Assembly: GCA_914767715.1 (NCBI GenBank)
Contig: OU612075.1
Coordinates: 1,304,001 to 1,368,000 of the forward strand
Reading direction: 5' to 3'
DNA length: 64,000 nucleotides
DNA from: Membranipora membranacea
Taxonomy: Eukaryota; Bryozoa; Gymnolaemata; Cheilostomatida; Membraniporidae
Shown: positions 9,953 to 64,000 of the stretch, in pieces
How positions within the stretch are numbered: the stretch's first letter is position 1
Layout: each line of letters begins with the position of its first letter
Position numbers and translations under genes: made by a program
Notes under the pieces: model-generated
What the model was told of the DNA's origin: nothing
The model's database searches: none
The model's input: only the letters and a program-made list of their open reading frames with translations

Positions 9953-10110
9953 CAGCCTGAATAGCTCAGTGTGTAGAGCGTCTGCCTGTGGATCAAGAAA
10001 GTTGTGGGTCGAATCCCAACGATGTCATTTTTATTTCAAATGGGTGCTTTATAACTGGAGCATTTTTACTTTTCCCAAGGTGGGTGTCTTATAGGTGAGG
10101 AAATACGGTA
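9953..10110 (+). mobile_element. tRNA-derived SINE-like head
   Basis: TAGCTCAGTGTGTAGAGCG (9962-9980) fits a pol III A box and GGGTCGAATCCC (10006-10017) a B box, at tRNA spacing. The putative acceptor arms do not pair, so it is not a working tRNA. A non-tRNA body follows and abuts the LINE fragment. Confidence 0.55.
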
Positions 10111-10116
10111 CATACA

Positions 10117-10960
10117 GAATTTAGATTTTTCAAAGGCCTTTGACAAGGTGTCCCACAAGAAACTTCTGTATAAGTTAGGTTTTTACGGCATTGACAACTT
10201 CTCAATGAGCTGGATTAAGGGATTTTTGAATGGTAGAACCCAAGAGGTAGTTGTTGATAACAAGTCATCATCTCCATCCAAGGTCACATCTGGCGTTCCC
10301 CAGGGAAGCGTCTTTGGTCCGCTCTTGTTTTTGTTGTATATTAACGATTTACCTTCTTATGTTATAAATGGTTCTCAAATACGACTCTTTGCTGATGATT
10401 GCACAATATATCGTGAAATTAAATCTCCGGTTGATTGTCAACATCTACAGGAGGACCTGAATAGTTTGCTTGACTGGGAACAATATTGGTCATTGGAATT
10501 CCACCCTAAGAAATGTGAAGTACTAACAACAAGTTTAAAAAGAAAGCAAACGCAGGCATCGTATAAATGGCAATCACTAGAAAAGCGAAAAGCAGTTATC
10601 TGTTTAGTAATCTTTTACAAAACACACTATAATCTGATTGATATATCTTCCTCTCTGCTTGTTCCATCCTTTAGTCATAGTCAAAGTTATTTAATTCCAC
10701 AATCGAGGACATAGCTTTTTCAAACAACTTTTTTTCCAAATACCATCCGCCTCTGGAATTCGTTGTCACCGAGTGTTGTCAAGGCCAAATCCCTCAACTC
10801 TTTTAAGTCTCAAATGTCAACAAGTTATTAGTTCCAGAATTATATTTTAGAAACACACTGCACCAAACGCACCACAACATATTATATTTATTGCACCTGC
10901 ACCTTTTAAACTGTGCGAAATACTCACCCGAGTCATGCACAATAATGGCATACTACTACT
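10117..10960 (+). mobile_element. 5'-truncated non-LTR retrotransposon (Jockey/CR1-like RT)
   Basis: The frame from about 10121 has the reverse transcriptase motifs LDFSKAFDKVSHKKLL, SGVPQGSVFGPLLFLLYIND and RLFADDCTIYR, the last with the catalytic FADD. After a deletion or frameshift, the typical C-terminus follows in another frame (FFPNTIRLWNSLSPSVVKAK, stop TAG 10829-10831), then a short TACTAC tail. Thumb and connection parts are missing, so it is dead. It lies in a stretch (about 9.87-11.13 kb) absent from the related blocks at 44.3 and 56.7 kb. Confidence 0.9.
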
Positions 10961-13179: not shown

Positions 13180-16100
13180 TCATGGAGCTTGAGCAGCCGG
13201 TGTAGCTGGGGCAGCCGGAGTAGCTGTAGCAGCCGGAGTAGCTAGAGCAGCCGGAGTAGCTGGAGCAGCCAGAGTAGCAGGAGTAGCTGGAGCAGCTGGA
13301 GTAGCTGGCACTCTCCTCCTCTTCAGAATATTCCATCTGATATAAGTGTAAGTTCTAGATTGGGGATTATTCATGTCTTCGTCGGCCATACGATCTGTAA
13401 TGTGACAATAGCAGTAGCTAACTATGATATTTTAGTCCGGCTCCATTTTATTAAAATTAGAGTGAGTTAATCCATATAACCTATATCAAATGTAATATTA
13501 ATTAATCACTGCACTCAAAAAGTCAAAAGTGTACATGTAGAGGGGGTAGGCTAGTTCTTGATGCAAAAAAATTGATCCAGATCTTGAAAAAGTTCTACTT
13601 GAAATAATGAGCCACGAAACCTTTGAATAAATTTTGTTAGATTACCGGACATAAGGTCTGATATCTAACCACAGCAAGCAGCTATTCATCTGGACCCTGA
13701 CTATCATCGGTACCTAAATATTTCAATGATAGGACAGCAGTACACTACTCACCTGGTAACCATTCTAAAGTAGTATCAGTATTACCATCAGGATATCTGG
13801 GATCTGTCAGAGATTGTGGATGTTCTCCAGCCTTTCTCATATTAACTCCAGGTCTGAGGTATAACTTTCTCATATCAGTCAGCGTCGATACAGTCTTTGG
13901 CATCTGAGGTACATTTTCAGTAACTGCTTCTCTTATCTGTGTAATATAGAGTGTGATGTATTCATTAGTTTTTGTGGGCTCAATTCAATTTACGGAATTG
14001 AGGAAAAATTATAAAAGACTGAAGTGATCGACTTTTACTGACCAAACAGGTCTTACGAAGTGATCAGTCCAGTCTATAATCAGAGAAGGGAGTGAAGAAT
14101 ACATGATGGACAGACTTCTAGAGACAACAGTAGATAAAATAGATATTGTTTTTATTTCTGAGTGTGAAGGTATTTTATTGTGTCTCTCAGCATGAGTCAG
14201 AGAGCAAGGAGGATTGTGGGCAGTAACAGGTAACAGTACAAAATTAATAGTATGAGTTATCCTCTTATGAAAGTGAGTACACAACTCCAGAATGATCCTA
14301 CAAAACTACAATATATTCAACAGGTATAGCAAAGGAACTGACAGACAACCTGTAATATTTATGTAGATTTAGGCATTCCTCATGTTCTATTTGTATGTAG
14401 CCTTGTCAAGATGCCACAAAAGATGGCCGCGTGACAAGGCTATTATACATTTGTTTCGTTATTACAAATAAGGTCAGTTTGAATTTAAAGGCCAGTCTGT
14501 CTGAAACAAATTTATACATATCAAATCCGACTCCAAGCTAACGATCTAAGTAAAAGCACACTAGACATTAGTATTTTATTACACTTGCCACTCTGCCAAC
14601 CTTAATATAAATTATCAGTATTTTAAATGACATGCAATTATTGTGCACCTAATATAATAATATGCTTACCATTTCGGCCAAGGTGGCGACATCATATTTT
14701 CCAGCAAACTTGTAGAATGTTACGACAAGAGCTCTGATGAAAGGTGATCCTGTAGCAGCTGATCTCAGGGAAGCAAAAGCTGGAAAAAAGAGGACTGAGA
14801 TAAATGGCAAGCTATTGTTATGGAAGCTTTTGTTTGTAACTTAAAGTCTGACACTATCTCTTGTGGATTGTCTTAAACTAAAAAACATATAGGATGAGCG
14901 AGACCAAAAAGATTATTCAAGATTGTTAATTTCATTATCAGCGCCTTACAAGTCTCAAGTTTTCAGCTAGAGTGCTATGTTGCTACTAATAGGCTTATCA
15001 AAGATTCAGACTTAAATCAGCTATGGTTGGTCAGTCGCTCTAAAACAAGTCATTCGTAGGATATTTTACGTAAATCGCTCGGAATGTTACAGGTCACAGT
15101 TTTTTTTACACTTACTATCAAAGCTAGATTGCATGATGAGTAAATCGGCTATGGATATCTTTTTGTTGAGACTGTCTAACTGGAATAACTCATCTGTGAC
15201 CTCACTTCCTCTCCGGCGCACTTCTACTATTCTAGGTTCTAATGTTGTGATTGGTTGAGGTGCTGCTGCATTCTCTGGACTCGGCAGAGATTGATTTGCG
15301 GAATCTAACAGCATCTCTCTGCGCCCTGAAATGACAAACAAATAAAATATTATAACATCCCTACACAAGTAAATATACTATAACTTAATACTTATTACAA
15401 TTCACAACACAGAAGAAAGTGTGAAGGGACAGGAGTCGTCTGTTCAATCTGAGTGGCTTGATACTGAATTGTTGGGTTATGTGCAGCGAAATTTCCTGGA
15501 AAAGATATCTAAATCATGTACCCACCTCCAGCACAGGCTTGTATTATAATGAGCTTTGGTTTTCCCTGCATGGCTGGGAAGTTACGAGGTGACAACAGGT
15601 TGTATATGTCTGTCAGTTTTACAAGTTTACCATCAACACCTGCTACACAGTTCTCAGCACCATGACTTGTGATCACCAGTACGAACACTCCAAGGTTCTT
15701 ATAAACAGATTCTCCTGTTTCATCCACTAGCTGGGTTTCCTTGTGGATAGCTTCTACAATCCCCTGTAATGATTTTTATAGACTAAGACATTATGTTCAG
15801 CATAACGCTAATATCCAAAAGTAATATGGTGTCTGTAAGCTCTCAGAGTACAAAATCAGCTTCATTTGACTTTTAAATTAGTCTGCGTCCCCCCAGACTC
15901 TTGACCCTGTGCGCCCCCTCACTCATATAATATAAGGGATTACACATTTTAGCCATTTTTAGTATGTGAAGATCAGTAATGAGAAACTCTGTTAACTTTT
16001 GAGAGTAGATCTACCCTTTTTCCAATTCTAATTTCTACACTTCTGATTTTCTCATAAAGCATATTTTGAACTCATGCCTACGTTTTTGTAATCACTATAC

Positions 16101-19100
16101 TAATTCAGTACCTTTACACAATCATGCTTCATGCTTATTTGGCTCATGCGCTCCTCCCGGACCCTCCCCACGCACTATGGGCCTGCGGCCGTCAATAACC
16201 ACCAAGCTATCTTGATCCCCGTAAAATCAACTTTATTTTCAACAGAGATATTTGGCAACTTTGACACTTTATCAACAATGCTTTGTACTATGCTACAAAT
16301 GAGTTGCATTTTGCCATCGATATGATTGAATTGATATTTACCTTTGCTGTGTAGTTCTGATGACCACCTGCAACAACAAACCCGAGCTTCACCATAAGAG
16401 CTCTCATATTTCTGTAGTCATGTTCTGAACCATTCCTGTATGAGCCGTCAGGTAGCTTGTACTCATTAGATATTAGGAGTGCTCTCCCTCGTGTCTCAGT
16501 CATTGTATACTGGAAGAAAAGGGCAACTATATAAGTATCAACAATATCAGTATTATAGTTATATCTGACATCATATTATTGGGGCTGTGATATGTCAGCT
16601 GTAGTCATCAATTTCATCTACATCATTTTTATGATGATAAAGTAAAACAAATTAACAGAAGATAGTGTAACTCATGGAAAGGAATGTCTGCATGTAATTT
16701 ACCGCATTTGAGAGGATCAAAATTAACTTCCTAAGTTGAAAAAAATTATAATTATAATGTTTTCATAAGAAAAAGACATAAAGATATACAGCTGGAGTCA
16801 GTGTAACCTGATTGGCTGAGAGTCCGACAGTATTTATCTGAGGGTCCTGAATTATAAAAGCTGGTTTCTCTCTCATATCCTTCATTATCTCCTCAATCAT
16901 TGCTCTGTCTACGGCTGCAGCTTCTAGAAGAGAGAAAAAAAACAGATCACTTAGCGATCTGTTTAGTCTGATAGAGAAAATTAAGTGAATAACAAGGTTC
17001 TCCATTCCCAGAATATCTAACACCTCACATGTCACCTGACACCATCATCACAAAGACTGTTTAAAAGCTTTAACCTACCATTAGGTACTTCTGGTACAGC
17101 TGGAAGACGGATCAGGTAGTCTTTGATTTGACTCTTCTCTGCAGCTGTCAACTCAAAACCTGTCAAATGGGAGGAATTTATAATCATACAATGGCTCAGA
17201 GCATGACATGTATACAGTAGATCCGGTAATTTGTCAATAATTCAATACTATTCATAAAGGCTACTCACACGGATATCTGAGTGGTGAGGGCACTGTGGGA
17301 GGTCCTCCCTCAGAGCTGTCGTTACCACATGGTACTGGATCGATTCCTGTGAAGTTATCCAACCGCTGGCTGAAAGGCTGGTCTGTCTCAGGATCCTCTG
17401 GTGGTCTGTACCAGTCAGGATCTCTCACCACGTAAGGTTCTAACTCTTCAGAGCGGAGGCAGTGAGCGCAGTAGAATGTACACACAGGATGAGCAGCTAC
17501 CCACACCGATTTCAATTTGTTGAGAATCGTTTCTAATACTTCAAAGACTCTCTTCCAGGCTGCATCAAGCTGTTCTACTGGTGTGTCAGTGTAGAGTAAG
17601 ATCTCATGCCTGATGTGATTGTGAAGGAGAGTTGTTACGTTCTGACCATGAGTAACAGATGATCCATTCTTTGCAACTTTGATCTGATAACGATGATCAG
17701 TGAAAAGGTTCAAAAAGGAAACTACAAGCAGGTGGTAGACGTAAGATGGTGGAGGTAAACTGTCAAACCTCACAGCCATTTTTATTCTCAAAAGACCGGC
17801 AGAAGGAGAACGGAGCACGATGAGATCTGGTGAGAGGTAGGGGATGATGTACTCCTTTCCATGATTTCTCTGGATGGGTCCACAAAGAAGATAGAAAGTT
17901 TTCAGAAGACAGATGGCCCTGTCTTCAGGAAAAGACAGACTCTCAAATAGACCTGTAAGCAGACGCTCGTCAAGGACACCACAACCCTTGAAGGTATCAA
18001 CAAGCTCGCTGTACTTCTCGGCAGTAACTCTACGCCTATCAAAGTAGAAGGGCCTGAAAGTAGCCACTCTTTTGTCCCACATTTCACCACGACGGTGATC
18101 AAACAGCGTAAGTATCACCTTTGTGATTTCGGTGATATTGTGGAAGACAACATCGCTCAGCATACTTTCGTTCTCAAACCACATCAACCTGCCTTCATTA
18201 TGCATATATCTGATTACAATCAGAGGGCCTTGTGTGGGAAAAGATTTCAATATATCCTCAACTCGAATGAAGGGCTCAAGCTGGTCATCGATAAAACGTG
18301 CTATTTTCTCCCAAATAAAGGGAATTTTGATCGAGTGCCTGTTACATCTCAGAATCAATGCGTCGAGTAGAGAAAGGATATTGTCCACCTCATCCAAATT
18401 TTTGCCAAATTCAAATATGTCCTGCAGACTGAATATCTTCACACCTCTTGCTGAGAAGTGATCAATCGTTGTTATCATCTTTCTATCCTGTAACTTTTCC
18501 TTCCTTTGTTTTTCCTGCAGGATGACTGCCTCTTCTGCAAGCATCTCATTCCGAAGTTTCTCAACAGCATCAAGCAGCTCAGCTCTCCTTTCATCAAAGA
18601 GTTCAGGAGACAGTTTGTCTTTATGAGTTAGGACGAGAAATGGAGGACCCAACTTGGGACAGGGCAGGTACAAATGAGCGAGATGTTCAACACACAGCTG
18701 TTTAGTGGCCTCTTCAATGTTCTCTGACCTGACTAGCTGATCAAACTGCTCCATGTTTATAACCACAATCGGGATATAATTTGGCCTAATAAGCATCTGG
18801 TATGATATGCGATAAACTTGGTCACCACCAAAGTCAAACATTCTCAGCATATTCTCACCCATGGATACCTCATTGACTTCAAACACTCTTGTAGTCTCAT
18901 CGTCCTCAGCAGACTCATCTCTATGTGTGAGCTCTCGTGTCCGACTCTTCAGACTTCTTATCAGACTAGTTTTTCCTGCCATTCTGTTCCCGATGACTGC
19001 TGCAGAAATGATCGGTCGCTTGACACCAGATTTCTCAGCTAGATCTGTGTAGTATTTCCTGATTGCAGCTAATCCTTGTCTACAGACTGCATATGGAGGT

Positions 19101-22100
19101 GATTTGAGACCATGAGAATTACTACAGTCCAGCTCTATCAGGTTTGGTAAGTCTATCACTGCTGGATGAAGCTTCTCTAGAGATCTTATGTAAGACAGAT
19201 CCAGATGTGTGAGAGACTTCAGTCTGGTCACAACAGCAGGCAGAGAACTGAAGTTGTTGCCCCAGAGATGTAACTTCTCTAGTCGGGTCAGACTATCCAG
19301 GCTATAAGAATAAGAATAGATGGAATGAAGGTGATGTCAAAAAAGCAATTAGAGATAAACCAATAATCTGTACAATAATGTAGGTGACACTAATGTGGGG
19401 ACTGACAGACTTACACATTTGATGTAAATACCCAATGCTAAAATGTCAGACATAACTACCTATCCATCGGCCATATTTTCTTTCTGCATTTAAACTTTTC
19501 TTGATGGTCTACCCTTCAAACTATCCACTAATATATTTCATACGCCATGAGACCTTTGATCAATATCTTTGTAGGGATATCGGGGTGTTTAATTACAAAA
19601 GGTTGCAAATATTTGGTTACTTTTTTGCAGACACAGACTGCCAAATCTGTAAAAACTATGTCAACTGGTGGTGATCGTTTTATATGTTGTAATTTAGAAT
19701 TAGAAGTTTTGATAATATTAAATTCCTTTAAAGATAGTTGGGTGATTTGTATCATAGCAGGATGCGCTTGAATTTCATCATAAGTAAATTTTAGGATAAA
19801 GCTAAAGTGACCTGTCTTAAAAATTAAGTTGAATAGGGTTGTGTTAGGAGTATTTTCCTCAGATTAACAGATGAGACCATGAATATGCAATTTATTATTT
19901 ATGTTATCATTGGAGCAAAGTGCACATTTTTGGCTGATGGCCAGGGAAATTAGGATAGAATCTAAATGCAAAGATATTATATATGCATCTTATGCTCAAC
20001 TACTTAATTGAACCAGAATTTAATTTAATTTAATATAATAACGACTATATCATTTATTATGATAAGTATTATTCAAAGACAAGCCAGCTTTGAATTTAGT
20101 TCACATACTACATAGGTATTAGGTCATGCCTAAAATGATTTTTTGAAAGAACAACTTTGCATTTTAAGTTCATAATAATCCAAAACAATCCTCCATTTGA
20201 ATCAATACACCTGGAACTTTTCTGTAAGAAAAATTCCCCATATCCTCCTACACTGAGCTTCAAGGCGTTTGATGAGGTATTTATATTTTAACATATATTT
20301 CATATTTCATTTGAATCGTTATAAAAATACAGAACTTCAAAGACCTATTTTTAAAATAATATAGGGCAATTCGTTGGTTATCCTAAAATATGAGAAAAAC
20401 GTGGTAAGCTAAAACTCCAGCAAAAATTGTATTCTGCTCCTTCAATGGTCAACATTAATTTTTGCAGGACTTTGATGTCATCTGATTATCAAGGGACATA
20501 ACGTCAACAAGCACAACAAGCTGAACTATAGGAAAGTTAACTATTGAAAAATAGGAATCAGAAGTGGTGTAAAGGTGAAGACTTCTAACTTGAATACAAC
20601 ACACCTCGCATGCAGTAAAAAGATCCCCTCTGCCTCTTCAATATTCTTTTACTTTACTCATATTTATTTTTGTTATCCCCTGTCTATACAACAGTTTAAA
20701 CACCCAAATCTCTCAGCATATTCAATGTTTGTGACAAAATAAACCATCAAACCAAAGAATTACCAGATCTTTGGCGGGCAAGGGTATGGAGAGCGGTTTG
20801 AGTACCATACCAAACTTTATTGTTGACTTCGCTATATATTTTGCATGTTGATGACTGGTTAATTGGTAAAAGAAATGCATCTATTAATTTACTGACTCCG
20901 CCCATGATAGCCTGTCAGTAATATTATGTAAAATCAAGATGTAAAATGTTCAAGTTTCCTGACACATCTTATATTATAATTTCAAACATCAAATTACATT
21001 AAAAAATTAGAAACTTCAATTTTACTCAATAAAATCATAATATGTTTGATTGATATTTGTATCAATCACAGGACCAGGTTGAGACTTCATTGGTCAACTT
21101 TTTTAGGACCAACAAATTTTCCTAATCTAATTTGAATGCCCCTGCAAACCGCTGACAGTGTAGTGAACAATTTGTATCCCTTTCTGTCTGATATGAACAT
21201 CATTATGATCAGAACTGGTCCTATAAGAGCCTCATGAGTCAAAAATTGAAGCTGATCAAATTTGAAGTTTTAAAATTGTTGATAATCTATTGCTCTGGAA
21301 CCCGCCTATTTGAAAATTCAATTAGTGGTTTTTTTAGCACAGACCAAGATGAAGCTGCACTGATTTTCTTGTCTCGAATAATTCAGCTAAAATAAACTGC
21401 TGTCAAATTGTACCAAATTGATACGTCCTTATGTTTTATGATAAATTAATACAAACAGAACTGACACTAGATGACAAGAGAGCTACTTTATTAGTCTAGT
21501 TCTGTTCCATCATCCCCCTCCCAAATTTTACATATATCTTAAGTATGCACAATTGGTGAGCACAAAAATAGGAATGTGGAATAAATAATTTTGGTCAAGC
21601 TGGTGAAAATTGAAGTTTTAAAGTTGTTGATATTTTGACTTTTCTGGAACGCAACTATTTTTTGTCACAGCTACTTTATTAGGCTAGTTATGATCCATCA
21701 TCTTCCCAAATTTTAGCTTTACCAGAATGCAAAATGGAATTTGTGATGACAGAAATAGAAATCGGGAATAAATAAATTTGGTGATGCTGATAGAATGTGA
21801 AGTTTTAAAATTGTGGATAATATATTCTTCTGGAACCCTCCTATCCTTTTATACAGCCTCGTGAGTCACTTTCAGATAATCATGGAGGGAAAAAGCATTG
21901 AAAAATGTCTGAAGCTCTTATCTATTGAGATACACACACCAGACTCACCTGTCATCTAATGATGATAGCTTACAGTTAGACAGATCCAGCACTCTGAGGG
22001 AGGTAAGACTGGGTATAACAGGAGGCAGACCACCCACTGAGAAGTTATTAACTATTATCCACAGCTCCTCCAGCTGATTAAGCTCAGACAGTCTGTCAAA

Positions 22101-23942
22101 TATGTACAAAATAATGTTATATGCAATCAATCAGTACAGGATACAAGATTTCAGATATTTCTCATAATGTATCATCAAATATCATATTATATTACACAGT
22201 TACTCCATCTAACTTAGTCTATCAAATATAATTAGCCAGTAATTGATTTATCTATGTCCCATTGCTATCATAATATACTAATCAAATAATTTGGACATAT
22301 TATGTCTAAATTATCTATATTTGATTATAAGAATATCATATATCATGTTATCTCTTTTACAGTTAGGTAATTTGAAAACAAGACTTTGTTGAAATGATAA
22401 ACCAGGAAGGCGTGTTATCGTGGATACCAGGCTGGGTTGAGGTGAGATCATTTGACAATTTGTTCCCAGTCGGGACAAGTTTAATATTTTGCACACAAAA
22501 CTGGTGCGCCAGTTTAGGTAAAGTTCATGTATTGCCAAATACCCAAAATATTGCATTCACAACTGATGAATGAATTAGAAATAATCATAACAATGATTAC
22601 AATTTCCATCTAATTCTACTCACCCTGTAAGTGATCCAATGGTCTCAATCAGATAGAGATGTGTAAGATGAGGAGCTATAGACCAGAACAGACTATCAGG
22701 GATCTCACTGTATTCTATATACATGTGAGTTATAGAGTGAGATCCTACTCTACTCTTTATCTCACTGATAGTCTGAGGTTTGGCAGTAACTGTGATCTCA
22801 CCAGCCTCACCTCTACGTCTGATATACAGTTCAACATATCCTACTCTCACACTCTCTATCTCTGCCTCTCCACTGTGTCTGTACCAGACTCTATATTCTA
22901 TAATATAATGGTATTAATCATATATTATCAGTGCTGTCGTCCTAATAAGGTCTTGTCAATGTGTAATCTGGTATTTATCAGATTATACTGATAATCATCT
23001 TGTCCCTTGTGATATGATTATGGGCTATTAGCATCTTATGATGTATGAGATCAAAACTCCTAACATTATATTAAGGTTTTTCTGTACAGCCTGACACTTC
23101 CTGGTATAAACAATTGCTGTGGCGATGGTTTACCAGGACGTTGGTAGGTTATAAAATAACTTATTGGCTTCTGTATAGAAATAACCAACATAAAAATAAA
23201 TTCTTGTTAATGTGTAATCTGGTATTTATCTGTTTATACTGATAATCATCTTGTCTCTCATCGTATGATATGATAATATGATTATGGGCTGATTAGCTAT
23301 TAGCTTATTATGATGTATGAGATCACAACACCGGACTAAATAAAAAACCGCTCTACTGTATAGCCTCACAATTCCTGGTATGACCAATTGTTGTGGTGAT
23401 GGTTTTATCAGGACTTTTAAAGGTAGTGGTTTTGAATAAATTATTGGCTTCTGTATAGAAATAACTAACAGACAATTTGAATGTCTGTTTTCTGTACTGA
23501 AAATATAATTGCGTGCAAATGACTAAATAATCTTGCGAGATGGGAGCATACCCTATTGATTTACAAGCTCAAGATTTGGAATCATCATATCTTGTCGAGA
23601 ACGAAATGGAAATTTTAATTTCATCTGTCTACTTAGCTCCAAAATGAGATCTGCCTTTGATTGCCCCAATCCTAGTGAGAGTCCCCTGAGTAAAGTACAG
23701 GGGGTCATAATAGTGAAGAGGTTTTTTTTGTCGTTATGAAGCTTGTATGAGCGGGGGGGGGGGGGACTAAGCTGGTATTAGCAAAAAATTTGTAGTTACT
23801 TACTCGGTTCCTCATCCCTGTCCTCAGCCTCACTCTCAATCTCACTCTTATTCTCATCCTCATCAACACCATCACTCTCACTCTTATTTTTTTTCTCACT
23901 TTTACTCTTCCTCTTGAAAAACCGTTTCACTGCACCGAGCAT
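13180..23942 (-). CDS. LRR-Roc-COR-caspase fusion protein (Roco-caspase), 12 exons, complete
   Basis: Exons, 5' to 3': 23942-23804, 22897-22624, 22092-21949, 19301-17269, 17159-17079, 16923-16790, 16509-16342, 15763-15526, 15325-15116, 14779-14670, 13936-13753, 13394-13180. All introns are GT-AG and the phases agree throughout, giving 3930 nt and about 1309 residues. Residues 1-47 are Lys/Glu/Ser-rich. LRRs span about 100-265. Roc follows with P-loop GNRMAGKT (290-297), DFGG (342-345) and THKD (411-414). COR runs from about 510 to 800. The caspase domain covers 936 to about 1210, with ITSHG (His 1025), QACAG (Cys 1068) and candidate S1-pocket arginines 960 and 1146. The tail is an Ala/Thr/Pro repeat. 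Roco proteins usually carry a kinase or death domain; a caspase output is unusual. The start is the first Met after a possible 5'UTR acceptor. Function as a GTP-regulated protease is inference. Confidence 0.88.
13194..13312 (-). repeat. 18-bp coding minisatellite (ATPAAP-type) in the last exon
   Basis: The last exon of the fusion gene ends in a degenerate 18-bp tandem repeat that codes six-residue units of the ATPAAP kind and stops at TGA 13182-13180. Related last exons elsewhere keep the YIRW sequence before the tail but have unrelated low-complexity tails. Confidence 0.8.
13753..16509 (-). other. Caspase (C14) domain exons 7-11 of the fusion gene
   Basis: Exon 7 opens with YTMTETRGRALLISNEY, the first strand of a caspase p20, and has YRNGSEHD where caspases place an S1 arginine. 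Exon 8 carries ITSHG and QACAG, the His/Cys dyad. Exon 9 (210 nt) is the p20-p10 linker, with candidate Asp sites EVTD and FQLD followed by SIADLLIMQSS, which starts p10. Exon 10 contains SLRSAATGSPFI, equivalent to the SWRNSKDGSWFI region of caspase-3, with the second S1 arginine. Exon 11 ends the fold at MPKTVSTLTDMRKLYLRPG. The usual QACRG arginine is alanine here. No CARD or DED precedes it; the LRR-Roc-COR occupies the prodomain position. Confidence 0.87.
17269..19301 (-). other. Large exon 4 encoding LRR end, Roc GTPase and COR domains
   Basis: This 2033-nt exon of the fusion gene opens in the middle of an LRR, joins the previous exon in phase and continues with two LRR-type turns. A short linker leads to the Roc GTPase, which keeps G1 (GNRMAGKT), a DETTR stretch near switch I, G3 (DFGGDQVY) and G4 (THKDKL). 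The COR region includes the hydrophobic RYMHNEGRLMWF element. Near its end is CTFYCAHCL (cysteines about 793, 797 and 800), resembling the Cys-rich element seen near the end of COR in other Roco proteins. The exon is one uninterrupted frame with no frameshift, which argues against a pseudogene. No second copy of this exon was found in the window. Confidence 0.88.
21481..21860. repeat. Tandem repeat of about 190 bp inside intron 3
   Basis: Two units starting AGCTACTTTATTAG (21481 and 21669) share a GAAGTTTTAAA...TTCTGGAAC core. A third partial unit lies at about 21180-21330. They sit in the 2647-nt intron 3, the longest of the fusion gene; the rest of that intron shows no gene. Confidence 0.65.
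22952..23470. repeat. Tandem duplication inside intron 1
   Basis: Two diverged direct copies, 22952-23190 and 23203-23470, lie in intron 1 of the fusion gene. Both start with a TAATCTGGTATTTATC stretch and end with GGCTTCTGTATAGAAATAAC. No coding content was seen. Confidence 0.7.
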
Positions 23943-38096: not shown

Positions 38097-40042
38097 CTAA
38101 CAAACTTCTCCAGTCAGCTTATATGTCACTATCTACAGAATAAAGACCAGATAAATTATCATAACTTTTACTAGCGCAAAGCTAAATAGGAGTTATGGTA
38201 GTTGTCACCCCTGTGAATTGGCCAGTATGCGTTGTGCTACAGCCTGAGATAACATGGACCTACAGTGAGTATTAAAATATACTACTTTACAGCCTAGATC
38301 TAATTATTCACTTTCCATCAGCTGTATCAGTAGTTTATCATACGATACACATGGAACGAAGACAGACTTTGTCGGTGCTGAGTCTGGGTAACTCTTAGAG
38401 GTCAAGAGGTGATCCTACCAGGTTCTGTGAGGATCTTTCTTATGAAGACAACTATTTACGTTTGAGAGGCACAGAGTCAAGAGTGACTCAGTAGAATAAC
38501 CTAAGAGGGTTAAACCTCACACTTACTGGTGAATAGCTATATCTACAGCGAACTATACAGGCATCTGAAATTAAGGAAATAATGTGGTAATTAGTGATAA
38601 TAGTTGTGTAATTCTCAATATTACTATACTGTATTACATATTGACTAGACATTAAGGATGTGGTCTTCATGTAGGTATGAACAGGCTTAGAGGGACATCA
38701 GTATATAAATAAGTAACAATGTATGGGATCTACACAACAAGTTCATAGAGCAATTGGCATATCTTAACATGTAACTGATTAATTGAGCTTGGTCAGGTTG
38801 CCAGACAACTCATGAAGTTTATAAATTGTGTAAATCAGCCTTCAATAATATCGAGTTGTTCTCTCTCTCTCTGAACTTCTACTTCAGAGAGTAAATAACT
38901 CCCATTTGTAGTAATATTGTCTAATAAGATTTAATATTATATTAACAACCAAACTGCACCACATTTATACTACTAAGTATAACCAGTTATGATAGATTAC
39001 CTTGTGACTCTGCTCATATTCTAATAAGCTCTGACACAGCTGTATCTGGTGATCTGGATTTCATGAACTCCACACAAACTTCATCATCAATCTATTAGCT
39101 GTAATACAAAGTGAAACATAAAAACTCTGACATCAGAATTTCTGACTGGGTTTGCATATTTTTATGTTTCTGTGAACAATTTTCTGTGTGTTGTAGTTGA
39201 CGGGTTTGATGATGTATGCAACGAGCCAAATCGACTCATCTCATACATCATTAAATCAGTCAATTAACCATTAAAAAAATAAAAGTAAAGGCATGTGATC
39301 ACACAACGTAGAATGTCAGAGAACTCCAGATTAACATCCAGCCAAAAAAACTGACAACTTATCCTGTCAAGTATGACATCATTACTAAGAAGGTGAGGAA
39401 GCTCTCACTATCTACATAAAACATAGACTACAAGGATATTGTGCAAACCAAGTGATCCAAAGCTACTGTATATACACTCCTAGGGTTCGGTCAGTGAGGT
39501 GGCTAGCCTCTATACTGTAAGTTTCTCATCACATAGGATATATCTAAGATCATGTCTGATCTAATTGTCCTATATTCAGCATTACTCCTCTCTACTGATA
39601 TTAAACTTCAGGACTCCTGACTGCGGCTTATCAGTAGAGGGGGAGCAATTCCAAATACAGGCCATCTGTTATGTTGGCTAACTTGTGCTTAAACTATTGC
39701 TGCCACTCAGGGAAATGTGTGCCTATTGTAAAGCTCAAAAATATCAAAAAGAGGCTACCATCTCATCATTGTCACCAAATGAGCAAGTTATTTGCACAAA
39801 CTTATCGCCAAAATCAGGGTATACAATTAATGATCAGGTTGAAATAATGAAATAATTATCGTCTTACTAGTTAAAAACAATGACGTCAACAACCAGTGCA
39901 TTAATTTCATACTCTGATTTTGACATCAGTTTATGCAAATCATTTGCCCATTGGAGCCTCAATTAGTTTTCTTTGAGCTACACTGAACTCAAAGAGTACA
40001 CATTTCCCTGAGTGGCAGCAGTATACTTGATCTAGGTATCAC

Positions 40043-40588: not shown

Positions 40589-42286
40589 CTAGAAGTTACA
40601 AGAAATGAGCAACAGAATAGAGGAGAGGTCATGATAATTGGTCTTGTGTCATCTTTAGTCGAATCATCATGATAACACATCCAAAGTTGGCAATAAGGCA
40701 TAAGACATAACTGACTGACTTAATACAGTATTTGTAGTGTTACTCTTTTTATCACTAGGGTATCAACAAATGGTGGCCAAGTGTCCTCATCATCTCACCA
40801 GTCTAAGTAGTGAGTCTGTGATGTAGCTGAGATAAAGGAAGGACTAGTAATATGAGCCACACACCTGTATAGAGATGGTATCTTGTCAGTAAAGTCTCTA
40901 GTACCAGAGTGTGTCTCTCAACTCTCAGGAGTGGAAGGTAACTTCCAGTTAGTGTAGTGTGATCAGAGAAGTATGTCACTTTAGGTGTCTAACTTCATTG
41001 CGCAGATAAACCTGACAAAATTGGCAATGACGCAATATGTTTATATCATAAACATATTAATATGTTTATATCATAAACATAATAATATGTTTATGGTTTA
41101 TATAATATAGTAATGAACACAGTTTATATACCCTAGGGGATTAAAGCTCGTGATTTAGTGCTGACTTAATCTTAGCTAGCACCGTATGTTCAGCACATAC
41201 GGTGGGAGCTTATATCAAGTTAAAAAGGTGAGTGAATTTTAGCTAGTAAAGGTCTCAACATATGAAACACATTTGTAACATTTTTCCCTGCAGATGCTTT
41301 ACTACTCAAGGCTATTAGGTTCTCCAGAACACTGGTACACTACATATATATATATATACATACATACATACAATGTAACTATGATTTCGCTAAGACAGGT
41401 TTCTAAATTAGATTTTCATCCCATAGTGTAGATCAAGGAATTATTTACATCGATCATGCATACATGATGTTAACAGATTATTACTCATACATCCGTATTA
41501 TCGCCCCTCCCTCACAGACAGCAGACAACTCCAGATCAGAAGGTATTAATGTATATCTTGGTCCTGATCACATCATCAGTCAGCTATAAGTTAAAGTAGA
41601 GGGTCATGACATTCTACCTTGAGGTTACCCAAATTACAGAGAAATACAGCAGACTGGACAGGTGAGCCAATCGATTATAACATAACTACTAGACACTCCA
41701 TCAAACTTTGGTGTTATTGATCCTTTGGTGTCATTGAGGTTGTAGAGTTGTCTGACACATGAACACTTTTGTAACAACTCTAACTGCAAAATAGAATGGT
41801 TGTTTGGTGGTATCAAGATTTTTGAGTTTACATGTTTTCGCGTGTGGTACTTGATTTTCTCATGTATAATTCGAATCACATCAGTCACGCCAACAGATTG
41901 ATATGACTCGACTCATACACCAGCCAATCAGCTTCATTACTGCAACTAAAAAACATAAGTTCACCGCACCACAAGACAATCAAACTATTCGGTCTGATAT
42001 ACCTAACCAGATAACAACAATGAGGTGTCAGACAACTCCGAATAAGCAGCCAACATCAAATACTGACAACAAATCAAGTACAGTATTTAAATGTTACAAG
42101 GAATGTTGCAATGAAACCCCGGCTACTATCTAAGGGAAACAAAAGTATTACATTGTTGTAGGCTAATTTCTTAATCAAAAATTTGTGAACATATATATTT
42201 GATACCTGAAATTGGTGAGTATGTACAAAATATCAAAGTATCACTTTATTTTCTCGCATGCTCATGACGTGATGTGGGCAGCTTAC

Positions 42287-42376
42287 CTGGTAACCATATA
42301 CTGTTTACCCGCGGACAGCAGACTACTCCTGGTCTGAGTCTACTATCTTCTGTGTGCTGTTTACACCACAGCTCAA
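42287..42376 (-). pseudogene. Short exon-11-like piece
   Basis: This 90-nt segment runs from a CTTTAG acceptor to a TTACCAG-GTAAGC donor and reads EDSRLRPGVVCC and then IWLPG. At base level CTCAGACCAGGAGT and TGGTTACCAG match exon 11 of the fusion gene (CTCAGACCTGGAGT, TGGTTACCAG). Exit phase is the same and the middle is shortened. It looks like an old relic of the same family. Confidence 0.4.
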
Positions 42377-44719
42377 CTAAAGTAATAATAAATAAGATGT
42401 TACACGATACAACCTTCACCTTCATACTGATACAGATGGAGTTATGGTTGGATCAGCAGCAGATTATCTTAGAGAAGTTGCATATAAATGTTTGAAGCTC
42501 TCAAGGCAGCTTATCTTAACTAATTCAACTTTCAACAGTAAATGTTAAACTTCAGTAACAATTGAAACTTATGAAGGTTAGGCGTCACGGTTGCAGTTTA
42601 CAAATCAACTTAGCTGATCAAGTTCAATCATAGGTGAATGAAAAATATCAGCGGTTGTGAGACACTGTGGGAGAGGGTACGGATATTATACTCAACCTCT
42701 TTACTCACTGTTTCAAACCAGTGTTCTCTTCTTACACTCTCGGACTACAGTATAAGTGTAACCATCTACATAATATACATAATAGGTTTTTTTTGTTGCT
42801 GCAATCAAGAGCGGAAGTTAATCTATTTACTGCAACTCGTAGCATCATATTAGAAGATATCGTCTGTAACATAAGTGAAGCCCTTTACAAAAGAGAGCTG
42901 CACTGTATCAGTAGACACAAACATAGCAGGGGCGCTGAAATATAATTCACCATTTTACAACCTTTCCTAAAATATTCAGTATTATCTTCCAATTAAAATA
43001 AGTGAAAACTATTTCCGATTTGTTCAGTTTTCAAAAGGTTGTAAAATGGTGAATTATTATACAAAACACCTGTTAGGTTTTGTGACTTGGACTCATTTGC
43101 CTGCTGCGCCAAGATTCTGTTGTGTTGAGACAGATATCAGACAAAAGAAGAGAAAAACTGGGCTACTGTTGAGTTTTCAGCCTCATCATCGAGAAAAATT
43201 TGGTGCCCTAAGTTTCTCAATTATTCAGCACTCATGAAGTCATGACTTTACATAATAAACTAACATAACAATACTCCCCGTTATACCCATCACAACATTC
43301 GTCACATCGCTAACATGTGTGACATTCTATACTTCCATCTACATACCTAGTACATCTTTGGCATGTCTTCAGCTGATCGTGAGCTTATTCCCTCCCTCTC
43401 CAGTATCACATGGGAGCTCACTCCATATCATTCACCATGTGACAATACCTGTTATACATATGAAATGGTCAGAAATAAATATGAGATCAGACAAAAAATT
43501 CAACAATGACCAAAGTAACTGACTGCCAAACAGCTTCAGCTAGTTTAGACAACTTTCCTCGTCATATGTTCAATTACTGAGCATCCTGATCCAGTTTATG
43601 TATTGAGAGTTAAGGAGTAAGGTCTTGTCATATATCTGACAATACCTGTTATAGTTCAGAAGTGGTCAGATATAAATATGAGATCAGACACAAATCATAA
43701 TTCTAACATAAATACACCTCTACCAGACAACTTCAGTAAGTTGAGTCAGCTAGTCTTCTCAGTCATATATCTACTTGACACGTAACAGTTGATTATCCTC
43801 ATCCTGTCCGTGTGCTGAGAGATCGTATAACTAATAGTACTACTATCATAACTTAATATAATGATGATATTCGCACTGTTTGCGTATTACAAAGAATGGA
43901 GTTGTGATCTCATCTACCTCAGACAGAGGGAAGCTATAATGTCCGTCTAGAATCGTATACCGGAGAGCTGTATCGTCCACCGGTCTTCAGGCATCTGATC
44001 ATCTCACACCACTTCTTACTATCCTGTATCAATTCCTCAGCTTCAATCTGTCAATTTATAATAAAAATATTTTGTGGCTGCATAACGTCACAGTCTAACC
44101 AATATCCTATATATGGTCAGCTATCACATAGGGTGTAACCAGGGAGTAATGTGCTGTGAATCTGTATCATTATGGCAAAAGTCTTAAAAAATAAATATTT
44201 GCTGAATAGGTTCAGATAATATTATATAATTATATAAAGATATCGTTTTCACTTCCGCTACATCACTTCATTTATAAGTGAAAATCAAGTCCAATGGTGA
44301 CGATTAATGTGTGTGTGTGTGTGCGTGTGTGTGTATACGTAGTAATGGCCTTTCATGTTCATCCCTAATACTTCATGTGTTATAATTAATAACCTTGTGT
44401 TCCTCTGCTGATATTCTGATAATCTCACAGACAGCTGTATCTGGTGATCTGATTCTCTTCAAGGTAAACCAAGGAGTAACTCCTTGGTTAAATATCTCCG
44501 TCATCCAGCTTGTACTTTTAATAATAAACTGTAACAGATAACCGCACATAAAAACCTAGTCTGATATAAGCACAGGCAGCAGGTCACTGACAGTTGATTT
44601 GATGAGTTGCAGCCTTGTGTGTGTGTGGTTTGTGTTTGGAGTGGTGAAGATGTGAAGCTGTGCATGAACCAAGTCATCGCAGCTGCGCAGCTTCTGTACC
44701 TGCCAAATGCATTGCTCAG

Positions 44720-44784
44720 ATGAGTCACTTCTCTCTCATTGGTCAGAATATTATATTCTGACCAATGAGAGAGAAGTGACTCAT
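44720..44784. repeat. Perfect 65-bp palindrome at the caspase-only paralog's stop
   Basis: Two 32-bp arms around one central T, starting ATGAGTCACTTCTCTCTCAT. The right arm ends in TCAT, which on the minus strand provides the TGA stop of the caspase-only paralog. Confidence 0.9.
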
Positions 44785-47700
44785 TCCATTCTAGACTGGG
44801 GATTATTCGTGTCTTCGTCGGCCATACAATCTGTAATGTGACAATAGCAGTAGCTAACTATGATATTTTAGTCCGGCTCCATTTTATTAAAATTAGAGCG
44901 AGTTAATCCATATAACCTATAACAAATGTAATATTAATTAATCACTGCACTCAAAAAGTCAAAAGTGTACATGTAGAGGGGGTAGGCTAGTTCTTGATGC
45001 AAAAATATTGATCCAGATCTTGAAAAATTTCTACTTGAAATAATGAGCCACGAAACCTTTGAATAAATTTTGTTAGATTACCTGACATAAGGTCTGATAT
45101 CTAACCACAGCAAGCAGCTATTCATCTGGACCCTGACTATCATCGGTACCTAAATATTTCAATGATAGGACAGCAGTACACTACTCACCTGGTAACCATT
45201 CTAGAGTAGTATCAGTATTACCATCAGGATATCTGGGATCTGTCAGAGATTGTGGATGTTCTCCAGCTCTTCTCATATTAACTCCAGGTCTGAGGTATAA
45301 CTTTCTCAGGTCTGTGAGAGTAGATATCATCTTCGGCATCTGAGCTATGTAAGCTGCATTCAGACCAGGATTAGCTGCAAGAAAAGCCTGTGTTTGCTCT
45401 ACTCCATATCTACTGACAGCCTCTCTTACCTTTGTGTAGAAAATAAACATTGTATAAAAGACATCAATATGTAGACGGGACCATACGCTATACAATTCAA
45501 ATATAAGCTTAATCAAGTCGAGATCAAATGTTTATGTGGAATGTAAGGTCAATACATCTCACATCTGGTGTGGATGGCGTTCTCGTAGCTGAGGGTTTTT
45601 GTTGACCCTGACAGAATCAAGTTTTATATGGCAAAGTTTAACTCTCATTCAAGTTCACACACCTAGTCCATATTAAATTAATGCGTTATAATACTCACTA
45701 GCTCCCCCAAAGTTACGACATCAAACTGTCCTGCGAACTTGTAGAGCGTTACGACCAGTGCTCTGATGAATGCCGATCCTGTTTCAGGTGATCTGGGAGA
45801 CACAAATGCTACAAAACAAGTATTCATTATGATGTTAACCTGAGTACAATGGGCATTAAACCTGTTTTTATGACATCACATAGATTGGGAGAGGGAAATT
45901 CTAGAACAGACAATTATAAATAGTTGATAAAGTAAATTATGTAGAAAAGGCTCGAATTTGGACTCATATACTCTCGAATACCTTACTCCTTTGTAATTTT
46001 TGTTAGCAGCCAATGTATGAGAGGAACTTCCAAATATAAAATTTACTGTCAAAACTTGACTGCATAATTATCAGATCAGCCACTGATATTGTCTCATTGA
46101 TACTGTCTACTTCAGGTAACAGCTGTATGACATCACTTCCTGTCTGATACAGATCTCCTTCTTTAGGTGCTGGTGATGTCACTACTAGATCAGATGTAGG
46201 GGGGAGAGGTTCAGGTGCAGCTGCACTCAGCTCTGAGATTGAGAGAACTGAGTCTGTAGTATCTAACAACATCTCTCTGCTACCTTTAAGGACAATCACC
46301 AGAAACTGATACCAGAACACAGTAGTATTCACACATCATATAGATAGACACATACACACAGTAATCTAATGTTTTTAGTGGAAGTTGTATCATACCTGAC
46401 AAGTCTCCCTTTTTGGTAGGGAGGCTCCCAGTTTTTAGGGTCTTTTTCCACCCCCTCCCTTTCTCCCTTTTTCCTCCCTTTTTTCAGCTTCCTTTACCAA
46501 GAACATTTTTTAAGCTTCTCTTTGCAAGGGAAACTATGTTTTCCTAACTCAACAGAGCATATACCTATGTAATTGCTTATTACCATTACTGCTTGTATGT
46601 TAAATCAGGTACTGAAATGACGCAATTCATAATATGAAAGCTCAAGTTTTGGCTTAGAAATAGGACAAACGTTGGCTGAAATGCACCGGCACTGCGGGAC
46701 GCAGAGTGGTATTACAGGTTGGGAGTTTGTCCGCAGAGACCTCCTGATTTCTGGGTCTACCAACTTGTCATGTATGAGTTGTATTGACCTACTAAATATG
46801 TGTCAAATCAGATCTCTTTGATTTGTATGGAGTTGCTTATACTTGACTGCACAGTTGACAGACCTGGGAGAGCAACTCCAAATTAGAACTATGAGTTCAG
46901 ACTTGATCGACATAGCAACATGGCAGTGCAGCATTGAGTAAATTTTATATATTTAATAGATAAAGTTTGATCCATTTGCCTGCATTTGGAGTTGCCCCTC
47001 CTCTACTGCGACATGACCAGTAGAGAGGGGCAACTCCAAACACAGGCAAATGGATCAAACTTGATCTACATTATTACCATCAACAATAACACTTACAACA
47101 TGTTTAATATATGTAACCAATACTTTCAATGACCCCTGTGTTGATATTGGACAGCTTTCAAGATTGTGAAATATTTCAGATGCTGCTCATTACTTAACAC
47201 GAGATAAACTTTACCTGGAGACCGTGGCCGGCTGCTCAAGCTAAAAGATAGGTTAATATTTCACTTACTTCCAGCACAAGCTTGTATTACGAGGAGTTTT
47301 GGTTTGCCTTGCATGGCTTGGAAATTTCTTGCAGAGACCATCTTGCTGATGTCTGACAGCTTGACCGGTTTACTGTCCACACCTGCTACACAGCCTTCAG
47401 TGCCATGACTTGTGATCATCAGTACACACACTCCGAGGTTCTTATAGACAGATTCTCCTGTTTCATCTACCAGTTGTGTCTCTCTGTGAATTGCTTCCAC
47501 CATTTCCTGAAATATAAATCAAGTTGTGACATCAATAAGCTACACCTGCAAGGTTAACAACATTATCACAAAAAATGTGTGTGCGTGTCAAGAAAAAGTA
47601 TTTTTAGTTACGGATAATGATTGCGTCTATAAGTAAGGTAAAGAAATAGATAAGTGAATGCAACTATATTTTACACTCATATTAGATTTACACGATCAAT

Positions 47701-47870
47701 ACCTTTGCTGTGTAGTTCTGATGACCACCTACAACAACAAACCCAAGCTTCACTAAAAGATCTCTCATATTTCTGTAGTCATGTTCTGAGCCTTTCCTGT
47801 ATGAGCCGTTGGGCATTTTGTACTCATTAGATATTAGGAGTGCTCTCCCTCGTGTCTCAGTCATTGTATA
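44781..47870 (-). CDS. Caspase-only paralog of the fusion gene, 5'-truncated
   Basis: Exons 47870-47703, 47506-47269, 46283-46047, 45808-45699, 45429-45189 and 44830-44781 correspond one-to-one to exons 7-12 of the LRR-Roc-COR-caspase gene, with the same phases and open frames. The domain has ITSHG and QACAG; counting from the internal Met at 47864 these are His 88 and Cys 131 of 345 residues. The S1-type arginine is in SYRKGSEHD and the p10 arginine in SPRSPETGSAFI. The p20-p10 linker has PEVD before SINETISVADL. No LRR, Roc or COR exon lies upstream: homology runs to about 48.08 kb and ends at an AT-rich satellite. It is either a small caspase starting at the internal Met or a beheaded copy. 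The last exon is cut short by a palindrome that supplies the stop. Confidence 0.75.
46957..47068. repeat. Fold-back repeat inside an intron of the caspase-only paralog
   Basis: Arms start TAGATAAAGTTTGATCCATT and meet at a CGACATGAC loop. The corresponding intron of the fusion gene lacks it, so it was gained after the paralogs separated. Confidence 0.75.
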
Positions 47871-53332: not shown

Positions 53333-53693
53333 TTTATATAATATAGTAGATGATTTGGGGTAGTTATCAACTCCAAATCAACACACCACAAAACAATGCA
53401 GAGACCACTTATCCAGCCTAGTACTAAAACATTACCAAGTGTGGAAAAAGAACTCTCTTTTATATCCAATGAACACAGTTTATATACCCTAGGGGATTAA
53501 AGCTCGTGATTTAGTGCTGACTTAATCTTAGCTAGCACCGTATGTTCAGCACATACGGTGGGAGCTTATATCAAGTTTAAAAGGTGGGTGAATCTTAGCT
53601 AGCAAAGGTCTCGACATATGAAACATGTTTGTAACATTTTTCCCTGCAGATGCTTTACTACACAAGGCTATTAGGTTCTCCAGAACACTGGTA

Positions 53694-53730
<37 letters not shown>

Positions 53731-57181: not shown

Positions 57182-57826
57182 TCCATTCTAGACTGGGGAT
57201 TATTCGTGTCTTCGTCGGCCATACAATCTGTAATGTGACAATAACAGTAGCTAACTATGATATTTTAGTCCGGCTCCATTTTATTAAAATTAGAGTGAGT
57301 TAATCCATATAACCTATAACAAATGTAATATTAATTAATCACTGCACTCAAAAAGTCAAAAGTGTACATGTAGAGGGGGTAGGCTAGTTCTTGATGCAAA
57401 AAAATTGATCCAGATCTTGAAAAATTTCTACTTGAAATAATGAGCCACGAAACCTTTGAATAAATTTTGTTAGATTACCTGACATAAGGTCTGATATCTA
57501 ACCACAGCAAGCAGCTATTCATCTGGACCCTGACTATCATCGGTACCTAAATATTTCAATGATAGGACAGCAGTACACTACTCACCTGGTAACCATTCTA
57601 GAGTAGTATCAGTATTACCATCAGGATATCTTGGATCTGTCAGAGATTGTGTATGTTCTCCAGCTCTTCTCGTATTAACTCCAGGTCTGAGGTATAACTT
57701 TCTCAGGTCTGTGAGAGTAGATATCATCTTAGGCATCTGAGCTATGTAAACTGCATTCAGACCAGGATTAGCTGCAAGGTAAGCCTGTGTTTGCTCTACT
57801 CCATATCCACTGACAGCCTCTCTTAC
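57178..57826 (-). pseudogene. Caspase paralog remnant: exons 11 and 12 only
   Basis: Exons 57826-57586 (end of p10, with YIAQMPKMISTLTDLRKLYL) and 57227-57178 match the last two exons of the caspase-only paralog almost base for base and have the same lengths (241 and 50 nt). Upstream, homology stops at about 57.85 kb, where sequence resembling 38.1 and 49.44 kb takes over. All p20 exons are therefore missing and no catalytic residue remains. This is a copy broken by the segmental duplication breakpoint. Confidence 0.8.
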
Positions 57827-61688: not shown

Positions 61689-64000
61689 TTATGGGCGGCT
61701 GCCTGCAGCAGCAGTAGCAGCAGTATCAGCAGTAGCAGCAGTATCAGCAGTAGCAGCAGTAGCAGCAGTTGCAGCAGTAGTAGCAGCAGTTGCAGCATCC
61801 CTCTTATTCACTTTCCATCTGATGTAATGATATGTTGTAGGTGGCTCTGCACTACCTCTAATCGACTCTGTTGAAATACCATCTACATAAGTAATAACAT
61901 CATTAATAACTTGAGAATCAATGCGGTAAGAACACAGTCCTGGTTTAATTGGTTAGTGATCCCTGCCAGATTTCCTCGCTCATCAATAAATCCCCCCTGC
62001 ACAAATTTATAATGAAGCCCAATACACATTATAATACAATAAATACAAACGAGCTAAGCTGTAGGTAGTAATGAAAATCTAGTCACGCGATAAGCTCAGA
62101 CCAGCCTAGAAAAGAGTGTCCAGAAAAACAGTGGTGTAGGATATCTGATATATTATAAGGCAGGGAAAAATGACAGCTTTTAGGGTGAAACAAAGTTGAG
62201 CCTAAAAGAAATGAGGTTGACTAGAGTCTTAGTGTTTGTCAGCACCACATTTGACCTGTAGCTTACCTGGTAACCATTCTAGAGTAGTATCTGTATTACC
62301 ATCAGGATATCTGGGATCTGTCAGAGATTGTGGATGTTCTCCAGCCTCTCTCATATTAACTCCAGGTCTGAGGTATAACTTTCTCATATCAGTCAGCGTC
62401 GATACAGTCTTTGGCATCTGAGGAACATTGTCAGTAACTGCTTCTCTTATCTGTGTAATATAGAGTGTGGTGTATTTATTAGTTTTTGTGGGCTCAATTC
62501 AATTTACGGAATTGAGGAAAAATTATAAAAGACTGAAGTGATCGACTTTTACTGACCAAACAGGTCTTAAGAAGTGATCAGTCCAGTCTATAATCAGAGA
62601 AGGGAGTGAAGAATACATGATGGACAGACTTCTAGAGACAACAGTAGATAAAATAGGTATTGTTTTTATTTCTGAGTGTGAAGGTATTTTATTGTGTCTC
62701 TCAGCATGAGTCAGAGAGCAAGGAGGATTGCGGGCAGTAACAGGTAACAGTACAAAATTAATAGTATGAGTTATCCTCTTATGAAAGTGAGTACACAACT
62801 CCAGAATGATCCTACAAAACTACAATATATTCAACAGGTATAGCAAAGGAACTGACAGACAACCTGTAATATTTATGTAGATTTAGGCATTCCTCATGTT
62901 CTGTTTGTAGCCTTGTTAAGATGCAACAAAAGATGGCAATGTGACAAGGCTATTATACATTTGTTTCGTTATTACAAATAAGGCCAGTCTGTCTGAAACA
63001 AATTTATACATATCAAATGCGACTCCAAGCTTACAATCTAAGTAAAAGCACACTAGACATTAGTATTTTATTACACTTGCCACTCTGCCAACCTTCAGTA
63101 TCAGTATTTTAAATGACATGCAATTATTGTGCACCTAATATAATAATATGCTTACCATTTCGGCCAAGGTGGCGACATCATATTTTCCAGCAAACTTGTA
63201 GAATGTTACGACAAGAGCTCTGATGAAAGGTGATCCTGTAGCAGCTGATCTCAGGGAAGCAAAAGCTGGAAAAAAGAGGACTGAGATAAACGGCAAGCTA
63301 TTGTTATGGAAGCTTTTGTTTGTAACTTAAAGTCTGACACTATCTCTTGTGGATTGTCTTAAACTAAAAAACATATAGGATGAGCGAGACCAAAAAGATT
63401 ATTCAAGATTGTTAATTTCATTATCAGCGCCTTACAAGTCTCAAGTTTTCAGCTAGAGTGCTATGTTGCTACTAATAGGCTTATCAAAGATTCAGACTTA
63501 AATCAGCTATGGTTGGTCAGTCGCTCTAAAACAAGTCATTCGTAGGATATTTTACATAAATCGCTCGGAATGTCACAGGTCACAGTTTTTTTTACACTTA
63601 CTATCAAAGCTAGATTGCATGATGAGTAAATCAGCTATGGATATCTTTTTGTTGAGACTGTCTAACTGGAATAACTCATCTGTGACCTCACTTCCTCTCC
63701 GGCGCACTTCTACTATTCTAGGTTCTGATGTTGTGATTGGTTGAGGTGCTGCTGCATTCTCTGGACTCGGCAGAGATTGATTTGCGGAATCTAACAGCAT
63801 CTCTCTGCGCCCTGAAATGACAAACAAATTAAATATTATAACATCCCTACACAAATATATATACTATAACTTAATACTTATTACAATTCACAACACAGAA
63901 GAAAATGTGAAGGGACAGGAGTCGTCTGTTCAATCTGAGTGGCTTGATACTGAATTGTTGGGTTATGTGCAGCGAAATTTCCTGGAAAAGATATCTAAAT
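61689..64000 (-). CDS. Roco-caspase-type paralog, partial at window edge (p10 and tail exons)
   Basis: Exons 63811-63602, 63265-63156, 62450-62267 and 61882-61689 match exons 9-12 of the fusion gene, with identical lengths for the first three (210, 110 and 184 nt). Introns between them are also near-identical by eye, so the copy is recent. The exon with the catalytic dyad would begin about 12 bases beyond the right edge, so activity and any LRR-Roc-COR part cannot be judged. The last exon is different: it keeps phase and YIRW (YHYIRWKVNKRD) but ends in an Ala/Thr tail coded by a trinucleotide-rich repeat, with stop TAA at 61691-61689. Confidence 0.8.
61700..61800 (-). repeat. Coding GCT/ACT repeat giving an Ala/Thr tail
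   Basis: An interrupted run of ACTGCTGCT-type units forms the end of the partial right-edge paralog's last exon, coding Ala/Thr with occasional Asp. On the plus strand it reads as GCAGTAGCA repeats. Confidence 0.75.

Follow-up and report, generated by a model that had tools for sequence, protein, structure and literature searches.

Accounts of animal caspase activation usually invoke platforms and adaptors separate from the protease, and the prodomain of an initiator caspase is a CARD or DED. Roco proteins carry a Roc GTPase domain followed by COR, and their C-terminal part is a kinase in LRRK and a death domain in DAPK1, with nothing in this place in MFHAS1. According to excerpts of the open-access articles cited here, bacterial leucine-rich repeat (LRR)-AP-GTPase-COR proteins can end in any of at least 24 types of C-terminal domain, among which is caspase (PMC8195603), AP-GTPases with COR are named in bacterial conflict systems (PMC7159879), and group 3 Rocos of brown algae bear a C-terminal peptidase, IPR009003 (PMC11378527). 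Excerpts of the same kind report Aplysia TIR proteins with Roc-COR (PMC9334734), include CARD and TIR among the domains of a ROCO figure legend, and describe MFHAS1 as confined to deuterostomes and not in protostomes (PMC4104024). No description of an animal Roco-caspase was found in the excerpts of the open-access literature searched. Here we describe a minus-strand gene in a 64,000-nucleotide stretch of the genome of the bryozoan Membranipora membranacea (GenBank assembly GCA_914767715.1, contig OU612075.1, positions 1,304,001 to 1,368,000; hereafter the window), in which LRRs, Roc, COR and a caspase are predicted to form one chain. The fusion is very likely real. With a probability of roughly 0.7, we read the locus as one gene of a family seen in bryozoans, whose product would be a self-contained sensor, GTPase switch and predicted Asp-specific protease acting in innate immunity or regulated cell death.

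A predicted twelve-exon gene with a Roco half and a caspase half

The twelve exons of the initial annotation (23942..13180, minus strand) could be rebuilt into one frame with AG acceptors, GT donors and agreeing phases. The joined coding sequence of 3912 nt, including the stop, encodes 1303 aa with 0 internal stops, and three AATAAA signals lie about 310-560 nt beyond the predicted stop. The exons and the two main Roco domains are given below, where P0009, P0016 and P0019 are proteins of another bryozoan, Watersipora subatra.

23804..23942, minus strand: exon 1, predicted start and Lys/Glu-rich N-terminus; the weakest exon, with no homologous support
22624..22897, minus strand: exon 2, pre-LRR region and first LRRs, based on frame and splice sites
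21949..22092, minus strand: exon 3, LRRs (Pfam LRR_4, 27.6 bits), 48-54% to the P0019 LRRs
17269..19301, minus strand: exon 4, LRRs, Roc GTPase and COR
18326..19027, minus strand: Roc domain (limits approximate), from invariant columns of alignment A1; residues 92-325 of the exon 4 model
17321..18334, minus strand: COR domain (limits approximate), from the fold match to 3dpu/3dpt/6hlu; under the Pfam cut-off
17079..17159, minus strand: exon 5, post-COR segment, based on alignment to P0009, P0019 and P0016
16808..16923, minus strand: exon 6, linker, with the donor revised to 16808
16342..16509, minus strand: exon 7, beginning of the caspase large subunit, YTMTETRGRALLIS
15526..15763, minus strand: exon 8, caspase His and Cys; Peptidase_C14 43.2 bits on its own frame
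15116..15325, minus strand: exon 9, intersubunit linker and beginning of the small subunit
14670..14779, minus strand: exon 10, caspase small subunit including the S1-pocket Arg
13753..13936, minus strand: exon 11, end of the caspase domain (TDMRKLYLRPG, similar in P0009/P0019), then tail
13180..13394, minus strand: exon 12, Ala/Pro/Thr-rich tail and stop; tail in neither P0009/P0019 nor copy B (a second caspase module of the window, described below)

In the caspase part, the alignments to P0009 and P0019 cover exons 7-10 and reach halfway through exon 11. The bryozoan homologues give no support for exons 1 and 12, almost all of exon 2 and the second half of exon 11, although a few terminal residues of exon 2 align to P0016 and exon 11 with early exon 12 recurs among the window's own caspase copies.

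For the Roco half, the Pfam search of the full chain returned LRR_4 (51.5 bits) and Roc (27.0 bits, exactly at the cut-off of 27; 28.0 bits on the exon 4 frame), with Peptidase_C14 further downstream, whereas COR-A reached 14.2 bits on the exon 4 frame, below its threshold of 35.3, and was not listed on the chain at E 0.1. Pfam alone therefore suggested that COR is missing, which was overturned by the AlphaFold model of exon 4, since its LRR-Roc-COR fold matches the structures of LRRK1, LRRK2 and Chlorobium Roco. In this predicted fold COR directly follows Roc, the arrangement that defines a Roco (Roc-COR) protein. On the minus strand, G1 (GNRMAGKT) was located at 18991-18968, G3 (DFGG) at 18835-18824 and G4 (THKD) at 18628-18617, and the Roc G-motif columns are invariant across A1. 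The A1 profile retrieved CtRoco 3dpu at 2.4e-15; a phmmer search of the PDB with Roc-COR returned weak matches to small GTPases and 3dpu at E 0.4. When genome contigs were scanned for relatives with the A1 pattern, tblastn confirmed 0 of the 62 pattern matches. The COR end of exon 4 (about 17475-17268) also contains four cysteines in a CxxC...C...C pattern, at least 90% conserved in A1, which is possibly a metal site.

The caspase half is complete at the domain level, as Peptidase_C14 reached 102.6 bits on the chain (cut-off 21.4) and covered positions 1-230 of the 233 in the profile. The catalytic His (codon 15664-15662) and Cys (codon 15535-15533) stand in SHG and QACAG motifs. CED-3 was the best match among solved chains (E 1.1e-18), with caspases 2 and 9 next, and its alignment retained both catalytic residues together with the R of YRNG, the Q of QAC and the R of SLRS. 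These Arg/Gln/Arg positions, which we take to line the caspase S1 pocket for Asp, are present with His and Cys in the window protein, P0009 and P0019. Domain order, the fold of LRR-Roc-COR, and the integrity of G1, G3, G4 and the caspase catalytic and S1 residues are thus read from sequence or fold, as the initial annotation had stated for the one-chain architecture and its motifs. No CARD, DED or death domain was detected in the whole chain (Pfam, E 0.1) or in P0009/P0019 (Pfam, E 0.05), and the death-fold prodomain of an initiator caspase is therefore lacking. Caspases have non-death roles, and the motif is QACAG here versus QACRG in CED-3; the fused caspase could accordingly be imagined as a scaffold or pseudo-enzyme, or as a developmental factor (for example in polypide regression) rather than an immune one. 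We consider this unlikely overall. The catalytic and pocket positions kept in the three proteins speak against a pseudo-enzyme, and a developmental role could still apply.

Fused relatives in Watersipora

Relatives were collected by three protein searches, each scoring about 8000 candidates, namely those with most shared words. The full-chain query yielded 4 proteins of 7993 scored, which matched via the LRRs and were excluded, while the Roc-COR-caspase query (9 proteins among 7989 scored, E 0.001) and the A1 profile (12 proteins among 7996 scored, E 1e-6) together gave 17 distinct proteins. PF00656 was found in two of the 17, P0009 and P0019, both from Watersipora subatra and both with the domain placed after LRR-Roc-COR in one chain, so that the same order is present in a related genome, a check proposed with the initial annotation. 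Over 1099 aa, P0009 (1419 aa) is 32% identical to the window protein (E 2e-164), which makes a chance match untenable, and the aligned region takes in the LRRs, Roc, COR, post-COR segment and caspase up to a common 'MRKLY' end. Like P0009, P0019 (1219 aa) is continuous over the border between Roco and caspase. The two lie on different contigs (64.0 and 67.1 Mb) and are therefore separate loci; because both have the same chain, an accidental fusion in the window model is unlikely, and a spurious joining of two genes was rejected in view of these fused relatives.

The Watersipora records are named only 'MFHAS1 homolog'. Caspase was not listed for P0021 (Plakobranchus), and the other 12 of the 17 relatives look like single-exon frames and therefore cannot tell on caspase fusion: in 11 of them the alignment extends to residue 863-867 of the window protein, where exon 4 ends, and in P0013 it breaks off sooner. 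P0020, from a JGI source, is 99% identical to the window protein over 462 aa and probably belongs to the same species or a sister species.

The exon 6 to exon 7 join and the caspase copies

Besides the caspase of the fused gene (copy A), the window contains three further pieces of the module.

44781..47870, minus strand: copy B, intact caspase module of six exons with the same phases as copy A
62267..63811, minus strand: copy C, caspase exons 9-11
57186..57745, minus strand: fragment D, comprising exons 11-12 and lying within a segmental duplication of 97% identity

Copy B has an intact dyad and scored 111 bits to Peptidase_C14. Across the 242 codons of exons 7-10, copies A and B differ by a synonymous divergence (dS) of 0.72 and a nonsynonymous divergence (dN) of 0.17, and the resulting dN/dS of 0.24 indicates that the caspase domain is under constraint (purifying selection). 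Copy C lies in a stretch (64000-62262) that extends to the end of the window and matches copy A, introns included, at 96.7% identity. Through a 4.4-kb segmental duplication (41112-45465 and 53468-57862; 97% identity), the last caspase exons of copy B recur as fragment D, and an inverted repeat recognized by eye (44700-44830) begins at the copy B stop, the point from which copies A and B differ in their tails. Elsewhere in the window, a reverse transcriptase fragment (10055-10711, plus strand; RVT_1, 86.3 bits) and a dispersed repeat family (1-1408, 38538-40042 and 50508-51726; copies 81-96% identical) were noted, and Pfam gave no matches at E 0.01 on 10 other open reading frames.

The continuity of the chain depends on the join between exons 6 and 7. 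The reading frame enters exon 6 in phase 1 and exon 7 in phase 0 and is carried across by the 116-nt exon 6, and splicing exon 5 straight to exon 7 was rejected as out of frame. Two competing exon 6 donors are both in frame, 16808 (CAG|GTTACA) and 16790 (GCT|GTATAT). In alignment to P0019, donor 16808 scored 67 with no gap at the join, compared with 63 for donor 16790 and 57 when translation begins at the exon 7 ATG, whereas P0009 did not discriminate, giving 50 for all three. Based on the gapless and higher-scoring join, 16808 was preferred and replaced the 16790 of the initial annotation, and neither donor is strong. Across the exon 4/5 joint, P0009, P0019 and P0016 share a conserved stretch with the window protein, and P0018 is without the exon 5 segment.

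Several observations weigh against the reading of one sensor-switch-protease gene. Compared by eye with AG|GTRAGT, the donor GTTACA is the poorest of 11, and the linker could not be aligned above shuffled sequences (78 of 500 shuffles scored as high for P0009 and 462 of 500 for P0019). The Roc domains of P0009 (18.4) and P0019 (26.2) fall under the Pfam cut-off of 27, and the Watersipora models are presumably automatic predictions. Two more Watersipora subatra proteins, P0016 and P0018 (75.9 Mb contig), are Roco-only with no caspase. The caspase-bearing rows did not cluster in a Roc-COR tree (2 changes, as low in 306 of 500 shuffles). Copy B is a caspase module without Roc-COR, and no significant Roc-COR match was found elsewhere in the window. 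As to the switch, the excerpt of PMC6337361 presents a proposed Roco cycle in which the GTP form is monomeric and dimerization follows hydrolysis, with the mechanism debated; the 'GTP-controlled dimeriser' of the initial annotation is for this reason doubtful and may have the wrong sign.

Part of this evidence could point to two adjoining genes, with the Roco ending after exon 6 and the caspase starting at the exon 7 ATG (16503) behind an upstream non-coding exon. Copy B shares the start and acceptor of exon 7, and neither an exon 6 homologue near it nor a Roc-COR homologue upstream was found; the weak exon 6 donor and the end of P0016 and P0018 near the matching site lean the same way. However, P0009 and P0019 are continuous across this very border, and neither AATAAA nor ATTAAA occurs on the minus strand within 17300-16300, that is, between the Roco and caspase parts. 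Moreover, the codons upstream of the ATG in exon 7 (YT) pair with the N-terminus of the P0019 caspase (VYRMT), and the score drops from 67 to 57 when the ATG is taken as the start, with P0009 neutral. We regard separate genes as highly improbable.

A second alternative is that both forms are made, a Roco-only regulator when intron 6 is retained and the Roco-caspase when it is spliced, so that splicing would set the ratio of decoy to active protein. Reading exon 6 past its donor meets a stop at 16765-16763 and yields a short in-frame end, QVTLTPAVYLYVFFL followed by the stop, and P0016 and P0018 end similarly, about four residues beyond the counterpart of the exon 6 end (judged by alignment only). 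Yet these two may merely have lost their caspase exons, and no AATAAA or ATTAAA lies near the read-through stop. Such alternative splicing overlaps with the reading of a single chain, and we hold it to be doubtful.

Loss was considered with the Roc-COR tree, which was relied on only for the placement of P0016 and P0018. It comprises 17 rows, without P0013 and P0001-P0004, and has open forks at 5 of its 14 inner branches, with P0021 and P0010 as long branches. It groups P0016 and P0018 with P0009, P0019 and P0017 (97/94 support), and this position, together with their end site, suits a secondary loss of the caspase exons. Considering both the caspase-only copies nearby and these two paralogues ending near a matching site, the caspase exons seem to behave as a cassette that is gained and lost separately.

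Proposed mechanism and comparison with known systems

For the single-chain Roco-caspase, we infer an immune or cell-death role from the sequence. The LRRs may receive a ligand or keep the protein shut, and the nucleotide state of Roc would alter COR-COR pairing, by which COR could unite two caspase domains or free them from a locked dimer. The caspase would then mature in trans at an Asp within the linker between its subunits, with the ends of ...GSEVTD and ...FQLD as candidate sites, and act on downstream targets. The active state might be a dimer with GDP or no nucleotide, or else a chain opened by GTP that other molecules recruit. Because platform and protease are one chain, a CARD/DED adaptor would be unnecessary. 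More tentatively, and with rather less than even confidence, we picture a bryozoan 'apoptosome in one chain', in which a danger-sensing LRR-Roc-COR switches its attached caspase via the nucleotide cycle while the caspase cassette is copied and lost in tandem arrays. If true, one chain would allow a direct test of whether Roco nucleotide cycling drives effector proximity. It would also bear on how Roc-COR controls the attached enzymes in LRRK2 and DAPK1, and would tie animal Rocos to bacterial effector proteins with LRR-Roc-COR, which have been described as conflict systems.

Compared with known systems, the closest likeness is to P0009 and P0019, which agree with the window protein in domain order, catalytic caspase residues and the conserved post-COR segment, but P0009 has more LRRs, and both have longer linkers and lack the Ala/Pro tail. 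With LRRK1 and LRRK2 the Roc-COR and LRR-Roc-COR fold is in common; relative to these two, MFHAS1 and DAPK1, all of which have Roc-COR, a caspase stands here instead of their C-terminal parts. The chain does not end after LRR-Roc-COR without a further catalytic domain, as MFHAS1 does. CED-3 and the initiator caspases share the caspase domain with large and small subunits, whereas the position of their CARD/DED prodomain is taken here by LRR-Roc-COR. IPR009003 is presumably a PA-clan serine type peptidase. The brown-algal group 3 Rocos, as far as the excerpt describes them, likewise place a protease after LRR-Roc-COR, with a peptidase fold other than that of a caspase. In bacteria, the LRR-Roc-COR-caspase proteins resemble the window gene, by their description in the excerpt, in both order and logic (repeat sensor, GTPase switch, C-terminal effector), while the window gene differs in its introns and in a caspase nearest to CED-3 and caspases 2 and 9 among solved chains. 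The statement of the initial annotation that no Roco-caspase is well described overlooked these proteins, which are in print (PMC8195603, excerpt). The LRR-Roc-COR-caspase order thus has a published bacterial precedent.

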